DNA from: Geomonas sp. RF6
Lineage (GTDB): Bacteria; Desulfobacterota; Desulfuromonadia; Geobacterales; Geobacteraceae
DNA length: 64,000 bases
NCBI RefSeq assembly: GCF_021044625.1
Contig: NZ_CP087999.1
Location: 1,443,001-1,507,000 of the forward strand
Direction of reading: 5' to 3'
The stretch's first letter is position 1. Every line of letters starts with the position of its first letter. Both the position numbers and the translations under genes were made by a program. Below the pieces are notes generated by a model, which was not told where the DNA came from, ran no database searches, and saw nothing but the letters and a program-made list of their open reading frames with translations. Below are positions 3,131 through 30,509 of the stretch, piece by piece.

Positions 3131-3162
3131 AAATCCCCCCTACCCCCCTTCGCAAAGGGGGG
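3131..3162. repeat. GC-rich palindromic repeat, family C
   Basis: A family C palindrome directly abutting the 131-bp dispersed element, in the same relative position as at its second copy near 20.7 kb. Confidence 0.8.
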
Positions 3163-20688: not shown

Positions 20689-20721
20689 CCCCCCTTTGCG
20701 AAGGGGGGGCAGGGGGGATTT
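20689..20721. repeat. GC-rich palindromic repeat, family C
   Basis: CCCCCCTTTGCGAAGGGGGG followed by GCAGGGGGGATTT. It directly abuts dispersed element copy 2. The whole 490-nt gap 20564-21053 contains repeats only. Confidence 0.8.
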
Positions 20722-20882: not shown

Positions 20883-20916
20883 AAATCCCCCCTGTCCCCC
20901 CTTCGCAAAGGGGGGG
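20883..20916. repeat. GC-rich palindromic repeat, family C
   Basis: AAATCCCCCCTGTCCCCCC then TTCGCAAAGGGGGGG. It lies upstream of cbiB, just outside dispersed element copy 2. Confidence 0.8.
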
Positions 20917-29754: not shown

Positions 29755-29787
29755 AAATCCCCCCTGTCCCCCCTTCGCAAAGGGGGG
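29755..29787. repeat. GC-rich palindromic repeat, family C
   Basis: AAATCCCCCCTGTCCCCCC then TTCGCAAAGGGGGG, between cls and the selenoprotein gene. Confidence 0.8.
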
Positions 29788-29836: not shown

Positions 29837-29867
29837 AAAAAAAGGGGGACGGTTGTGCCGTCCCCCT
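29837..29867 (-). terminator. Intrinsic terminator of the selenoprotein gene
   Basis: On the minus strand AGGGGGACGG, loop CACAA, CCGTCCCCCT is followed directly by TTTTTT. It lies about 40 nt after the stop at 29910. Confidence 0.9.
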
Positions 29868-29909: not shown

Positions 29910-30470
29910 CTAGAGGAGACGGTACGGCAGCGCCCTGCGGGTCCACTCGCTGTCGGGGTACTGGCTGGAGAGCTGCTCATACGTCTGCTTCAGGAGCTGC
30001 GCATCGTGGGTGGCCTTGAACTTCGCCACTCCTTTGAGATAGAGAGCCTCCGGCGCCGCGCCGCTCTTCGGATAGAGCATGCCGAGGGTATTCAGCTGGA
30101 CTACCGCGTCGTCGTACTTGCCGTTGTCGAAGGCGACCTTGGAAATACCCAGGAGCAGCGAGGCAAGAAGTTCTTCAGGCGGCAGGTACCCCACCGTCCT
30201 GTTGTGCTCTTCGCCGTTCTCGTCGAGGATTACCAAGGTCGGCGTCCACTGTACCTTGAAGTCGGAGGAGAGGGGCTGGGCGTTTGCAGGCACCCTCAGG
30301 GGAATAACCTTTTCCGTGATGAACTGCGCTACAGCATTGTCGGGATACGAAACCGCATCCATCTGTTGGCAGCCAATTCAACCGGGGCTGTAGAAATCGA
30401 GGAGCACCGGTCTGTGCTCTTCCTTGGCCCGGGAGAGTGCCGTGGCCATGTCAGATTCCCATCTGATCAT
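29910..30470 (-). CDS. Thioredoxin-fold selenoprotein (UGA-encoded Sec, UxxC)
   Basis: 186 residues if the in-frame TGA at codon 31 (30378-30380) is read as selenocysteine. The context is LLDFYSPG-U-IGCQQMDAV, where U31 takes the place of the first catalytic cysteine of a thioredoxin CxxC and C34 is the second. WTPTLVILD supplies the cis-proline of the thioredoxin fold. Residues from about 105 form a TPR-like helical tail. ATG 30470 has a strong AAGGAGG seven bases upstream, which supports translation through the TGA. An 18-nt hairpin sits 18-35 nt after the TGA. A conventional call would begin at the internal ATG 30362 and lose the active site. It has its own terminator. Role: probably a cytoplasmic thiol/selenol oxidoreductase (no signal peptide). 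Confidence 0.88.
30343..30360 (-). promoter_or_regulatory. Candidate bacterial SECIS hairpin
   Basis: On the minus strand GGATGCG, loop GTTT, CGTATCC forms a 7-bp stem with one G-U pair and a small loop beginning with G. It starts 18 nt after the UGA. Size, position and loop match the general bacterial SECIS pattern bound by SelB. Confidence 0.75.
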
Positions 30471-30509
30471 CAGAAAGCCTCCTTATACTGAAGAGATAGC
30501 GGTTCTCTA

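Follow-up and report, generated by a model that had tools for sequence, protein, structure and literature searches.

The window analysed here, a stretch of 64,000 nucleotides from contig NZ_CP087999.1 of Geomonas sp. RF6, carries on its minus strand a reading frame that very probably encodes a 186-residue selenoprotein (29910..30470). The frame runs from ATG 30470-30468 to TAG 29912-29910, has full-length homologues, and is interrupted only by a TGA at codon 31 (30380-30378), in the context FYSPG-U-IGC. An AAGGAGG ribosome-binding site (30478..30484, minus strand) lies 7 nt 5' of the ATG. Read with the ordinary code, the locus yields a 150-residue open reading frame from the internal ATG 30362. 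A first-pass annotation had traced the longer frame from ATG 30470 through the single TGA and had noted the AAGGAGG site, and all of its coordinates proved right. Downstream, 42 nt past the stop codon, an intrinsic-terminator-like hairpin with a T run (29843..29867, minus strand) contains 10 pairs, 8 of them GC; chance alone would produce roughly one such site in the region, and the position of the hairpin is the main support for it. Conservation of the neighbouring genes, cls and rsmB, stops at the order, and they give no functional hint.

Homologous loci show how codon 31 is used across the family. Among 177 loci it is TGA in 146, TGC in 22, TGT in 7, and GTG or GAG in two distant degenerate copies, so that 175 of the 177 have TGA or a Cys codon there. 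This count combines two overlapping collections, in which some organisms are possibly counted twice, and its 29 TGC/TGT loci include distant relatives. The proposal that the TGA replaces the first cysteine of a CxxC motif is borne out by this pattern. In the redox motif U31-I-G-C34 (30369..30380, minus strand), I32 and C34 are invariant and residue 31 is Sec or Cys in the alignment. W75, T76 and P77, the tryptophan, threonine and cis-proline of the WTP motif (30240..30248, minus strand), are each invariant in 40 aligned homologues, as is C34. The family proper comprises 155 distinct proteins; Sec occurs in 133 of them and Cys in 22.

Relatives of the gene occur in its order and beyond its phylum. 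An order-level search matches 103 of 141 genomes at E 0.001, many of these being generic thioredoxin-fold or TPR matches, and the full-length relatives within the order correspond to about 50 matches with E < 1e-40. A phylum sample gives matches in 84 of 395 genomes at 1e-25. Homologues appear in Desulfobacterota, Nitrospirota, Brocadiales (Candidatus Brocadia, Jettenia), Nitrospinota and one acidobacterial assembly; the genomes outside the phylum are nearly all metagenome-assembled, and single placements among them may be binning errors. Because the peptide patterns used in that wider search omitted codon 31 itself, they carry no bias toward TGA. No plasmid relatives of the gene were found.

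Across these phyla the 30 residues upstream of the TGA are conserved as protein, the N-terminal 36 residues are present in homologues, and the Cys homologues read straight through position 31. Sequence comparison confirms that conservation of the frame across the TGA far exceeds chance, since both sides are conserved as one protein and codon 31 follows its characteristic pattern in the 177 loci.

The mRNA downstream of the TGA contains a candidate SECIS hairpin, GGAUGC-GGUUUC-GUAUCC (30343..30360, minus strand), with a stem of 6-7 bp and an apical loop at 30354-30349. The bacterial SECIS model calls for an upper stem of 4-16 bp, a loop of 3-9 nt, a spacing of 16-37 nt and a G within the first two loop positions (PMC13188914). 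The hairpin conforms to it, with a 6 bp stem, the 6-nt loop GGUUUC, G at loop position 2 and 23 nt between UGA and loop. Its consensus among homologues is GGAUGC-NGUNNC-GUAUCC at positions 20 to 37, counting the T of TGA as 0. In the first set of close relatives, all six standard pairs form in 94 of 94 distinct TGA sequences versus 0 of 13 Cys sequences, and a synonymous-codon resampling null gives a mean of 6 and a maximum of 14 of 94. Codon 41 is likewise ACG or TCG in 97/97 TGA loci of that set and mostly ACC in Cys homologues. Diverged TGA relatives have the stems GAAUAC/GUAUUC and GGGUGC/GUACCC, with compensatory GC-AU changes at two stem pairs; pairing holds in 97% of cells, compared with 21-63% after sliding the partner.

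Of the 146 TGA loci in the wider set, 136 retain all six pairs. Among the ten incomplete loci, eight carry a displaced stem that encloses a GGUC loop, with the distance unchanged (folding was run on one, L171); for L195 and L198 no clear hairpin is seen in this register. On its own (25 nt), the hairpin folds at -9.4 kcal/mol with a z of -2.46. Within 45 nt its z is only -0.77, not unusually stable, and the case for a SECIS element therefore rests on conservation rather than on stability. An Rfam search returned no SECIS match.

These comparisons bear directly on whether the TGA is a sequencing error or a recent pseudogene mutation for TGC or TGT, an explanation that fits the Cys found at residue 31 in a minority of homologues. 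Its probability is practically negligible, because well over 100 other loci in separately sequenced genomes share both the TGA and the conserved SECIS hairpin, and nearly all of them lack a second in-frame stop. The homologues refute it, and the first-pass annotation's concern about such an error is settled.

Several homologues lie apart from this main pattern. A diverged subfamily (L176, L178, L179, L196, L200) mostly reads WFDG-U-LGC and has a different SECIS stem sequence, and one genome (G054) has such a member as a second copy in addition to the main gene. More distant relatives (L181-L189, family f63), at 27-34% identity, are mostly CxxS or without the active-site Cys, and three of their genomes lack selA and selB; this family is possibly a non-catalytic thioredoxin-TPR branch.

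The host genome (5.26 Mb, single contig) encodes the machinery for selenocysteine insertion. The first-pass annotation had proposed looking for it, and selA, selB, tRNA-Sec and selD are all found. The tRNA-Sec gene (77.4 bits, over cut-off) occupies genome positions 1783473-1783566, with SelA (612 bits; 1782018-1783379) directly upstream, and SelB is recognised by its C-terminal winged-helix domain. SelD itself carries an in-frame TGA (MVQAAGUAAKLGP), so the host encodes at least one textbook selenoprotein beyond the thioredoxin-TPR protein.

Across the family, a selA match occurs in 63 of 65 tested genomes carrying the TGA gene, one match being a fragment (G289). The exceptions are G063, where selB is present, and G132, whose assembly is 53% complete. 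Since selA is present in 121 of 141 genomes of the order anyway, this linkage is a necessary condition rather than strong positive evidence. The G063 locus (L164, contig C146) has the TGA gene with an intact SECIS; selB was found and selA was not found in the assembly, probably an assembly gap. The distance between the selenoprotein gene and selA is 4-9 kb in several relatives (L125, L126, L127, L130). The corresponding distance in the host genome is about 300 kb, and for this reason no functional link to selA is claimed.

Taken together with the hairpin, this machinery suggests how the UGA would be decoded. When the ribosome reaches UGA 30380-30378, the hairpin at 30360-30343 would bind SelB carrying Sec-tRNA-Sec, and SelB-delivered selenocysteine would replace termination, as the comparative sequence evidence indicates. 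Readthrough by a near-cognate tRNA such as that for Trp could also produce a full-length protein. Such readthrough is extremely unlikely in view of SelB, tRNA-Sec and the conserved SECIS, and in view of codon swaps that occur only with Cys in the family. Selenocysteine insertion at residue 31 of a UxxC thioredoxin-fold protein thus remains the reading in which we place very high confidence.

Structural prediction gives a compact two-part protein. AlphaFold2, run with 40 homologues, returns a model with pLDDT 97.8 and pTM 0.91, from which a thioredoxin domain followed by a TPR-like tail is predicted with high confidence. The thioredoxin-fold domain covers residues 1-105 (30156..30470, minus strand). 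Its best Pfam match is PF13098 (1.6e-15; 57.8 bits against a curated cut-off of 27), with U31-C34 and the cis-proline present, and PF13899 also matches (1.9e-9). The tail covers residues 98-185 (29916..30179, minus strand), about 88 residues with five predicted helices (98-115, 119-132, 139-154, 158-170 and 175-185) and one short terminal turn. Its TPR_6 profile score, 22.9 bits, falls below the 26.3 cut-off, and an NCBIfam search found no family above its own cut-off. In VIA-align comparisons, the thioredoxin-fold domain reaches Z 12-13 to DsbD-gamma and thioredoxins, and tail residues 97-180 reach Z 13.3 to BamD.

The model also shows what the ordinary reading would remove. The 150-residue form lacks the first helix and strand as well as the catalytic residue, in agreement with the first-pass argument that both halves are needed for a thioredoxin fold, with the WTPT cis-proline motif after the TGA. 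A rival view takes this short protein as the true product and the sequence 5' of the TGA as a remnant; it is the open reading frame that the standard code yields, and M37, its initiator, is conserved in all aligned homologues. We consider this very unlikely: protein-level conservation of the upstream residues extends over several phyla, the Cys homologues are continuous through position 31, and the SECIS is whole only alongside TGA.

By analogy with UxxC thioredoxin-fold chemistry, the protein is likely a thiol-disulfide reductase using Sec31 and Cys34. Sec31 would act as the nucleophile on a substrate disulfide or another oxidised thiol, Cys34 would resolve the mixed selenenyl-sulfide, after which the enzyme would be reset by a thiol reductant. 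The TPR-like tail probably binds partner or client proteins, a role toward which we lean with somewhat less assurance. In both sequence and structure, the nearest thioredoxin-fold proteins are the C-terminal domain of DsbD, DsbH and Thioredoxin_7 proteins. DsbD-gamma belongs to a membrane protein, of which it forms the periplasmic end, whereas the 186-residue sequence contains no visible signal peptide or membrane stretch; because no signal peptide is visible, we infer a cytosolic location.

The order of the domains recalls CnoX/YbbN, in which a thioredoxin domain precedes two subdomains of five helices each that make up a TPR domain (PMC8129009). Holdase activity and the passing of clients to GroEL also mark that group. 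YbbN/CnoX proteins are the first and fourth whole-chain Foldseek matches (3qdn, 3qou), and CnoX proteins join holdase and redox functions (PMC8129009). The protein might accordingly work mainly as a CnoX-type chaperone or scaffold, its Sec linking to clients through mixed bonds instead of supporting reductase turnover. This role appears unlikely, as the invariant resolving Cys34 and cis-proline favour turnover, CnoX has a much longer tail, and a whole-chain rmsd above 10 A (10.8-12.4) indicates a different domain arrangement. CnoX/YbbN also has Ser or Cys where this protein has Sec, and identity is 18%. Membership in CnoX/YbbN was rejected on architecture, given the five helices and roughly 88 residues of the tail together with that rmsd. 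A Sec31/Cys34 reductase remains the favoured role.

Selenoproteins of this kind already figure in published lists of predictions. For G. metallireducens and G. uraniireducens, a 2006 survey counted both a 'thioredoxin' and a 'thiol:disulfide interchange protein' among the selenoproteins (PMC1794560). The latter family is PF13098 with UxxC, exemplified in a 2026 list by WP_011366075.1 (PMC13188914 Table 1), and its listed carriers are Geobacter metallireducens, G. uraniireducens and Syntrophus (PMC1794560, PMC13188914). The thioredoxin-TPR gene probably belongs to this family, as judged by Pfam, motif and listed organisms: PF13098 is its best Pfam match, it shares the UxxC motif, and in one genome (G051) it is the only PF13098 match with an internal TGA. 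The lists differ from the present picture in that the TPR tail is unmentioned there and G. sulfurreducens is omitted, while related genomes here carry the gene. The literature search found no paper on the TPR tail or the SECIS conservation of this selenoprotein. The first-pass suggestion that the combination of UxxC thioredoxin and TPR-like tail may be poorly described thus holds for the tail, of which no description was found, and fails for the UxxC PF13098 kind, which is already on published predicted lists (PMC1794560, PMC13188914).

The genomes compared here hold two TGA-bearing thioredoxin-fold genes, one in PF00085 (WAPWUPHC) and one in PF13098, the thioredoxin-TPR gene. The host copy of the former (L208, G000:C1:4367607-4367900) is a second thioredoxin with an in-frame TGA, the motif WAPWUPHC and an N-terminal CxxC-CxxC part, and likely corresponds to the published Geobacter selenoprotein 'Trx'. 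It resembles the thioredoxin-TPR protein in its UxxC thioredoxin fold and its occurrence in the same genomes, and differs in being a separate gene, in its N-terminal CxxC-CxxC part and in lacking a TPR tail. Identity of the thioredoxin-TPR protein with the classical PF00085 UPHC Sec thioredoxin is ruled out by this distinct gene in the host and four relatives. Identity with the 'thioredoxin' GSU3446 (PMC1914089) was likewise set aside, as the genomes hold a separate UPHC thioredoxin with TGA.

The distribution of Sec and Cys indicates how the family evolved. A quick tree of the 155 proteins was built with the Sec/Cys residue excluded and the f63 relatives left out; placement of its long-branched rows is unsure. 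On it, Cys arises in three changes, all nested among Sec rows: a clade of 20 (genus g7 plus G023), G421 and G155. From this nesting, Sec is the prevailing and probably the older state, Cys a rare and probably derived one. G421 has the Cys version, with neither selA nor selB found in its genome; G315, which sits closest to it on the tree, has TGA and selA. Genus g7 has replaced Sec by Cys and no longer has the SECIS, while its genomes retain selA, making it a natural pair for probing what selenium contributes to a thioredoxin-fold enzyme. A broader view, tentative and rather doubtful, would make the protein a compact 'seleno-chaperedoxin': a widespread anaerobe family, undescribed as its own, of Sec-based disulfide reductases with their own TPR client-binding arm, ancestrally Sec and rarely Cys. 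In practical terms, well over a hundred genomes are affected by the standard reading, which cuts the gene short at the catalytic residue.

The window also contains a palindromic element, CCCCCTTCGCAAAGGGGG, in five copies at 2941-2958, 3144-3161, 20690-20707, 20897-20914 and 29769-29786. These form two pairs, with about 205 bases between the members of each, and a single copy just downstream of the selenoprotein gene; 0.06 matches would be expected by chance.
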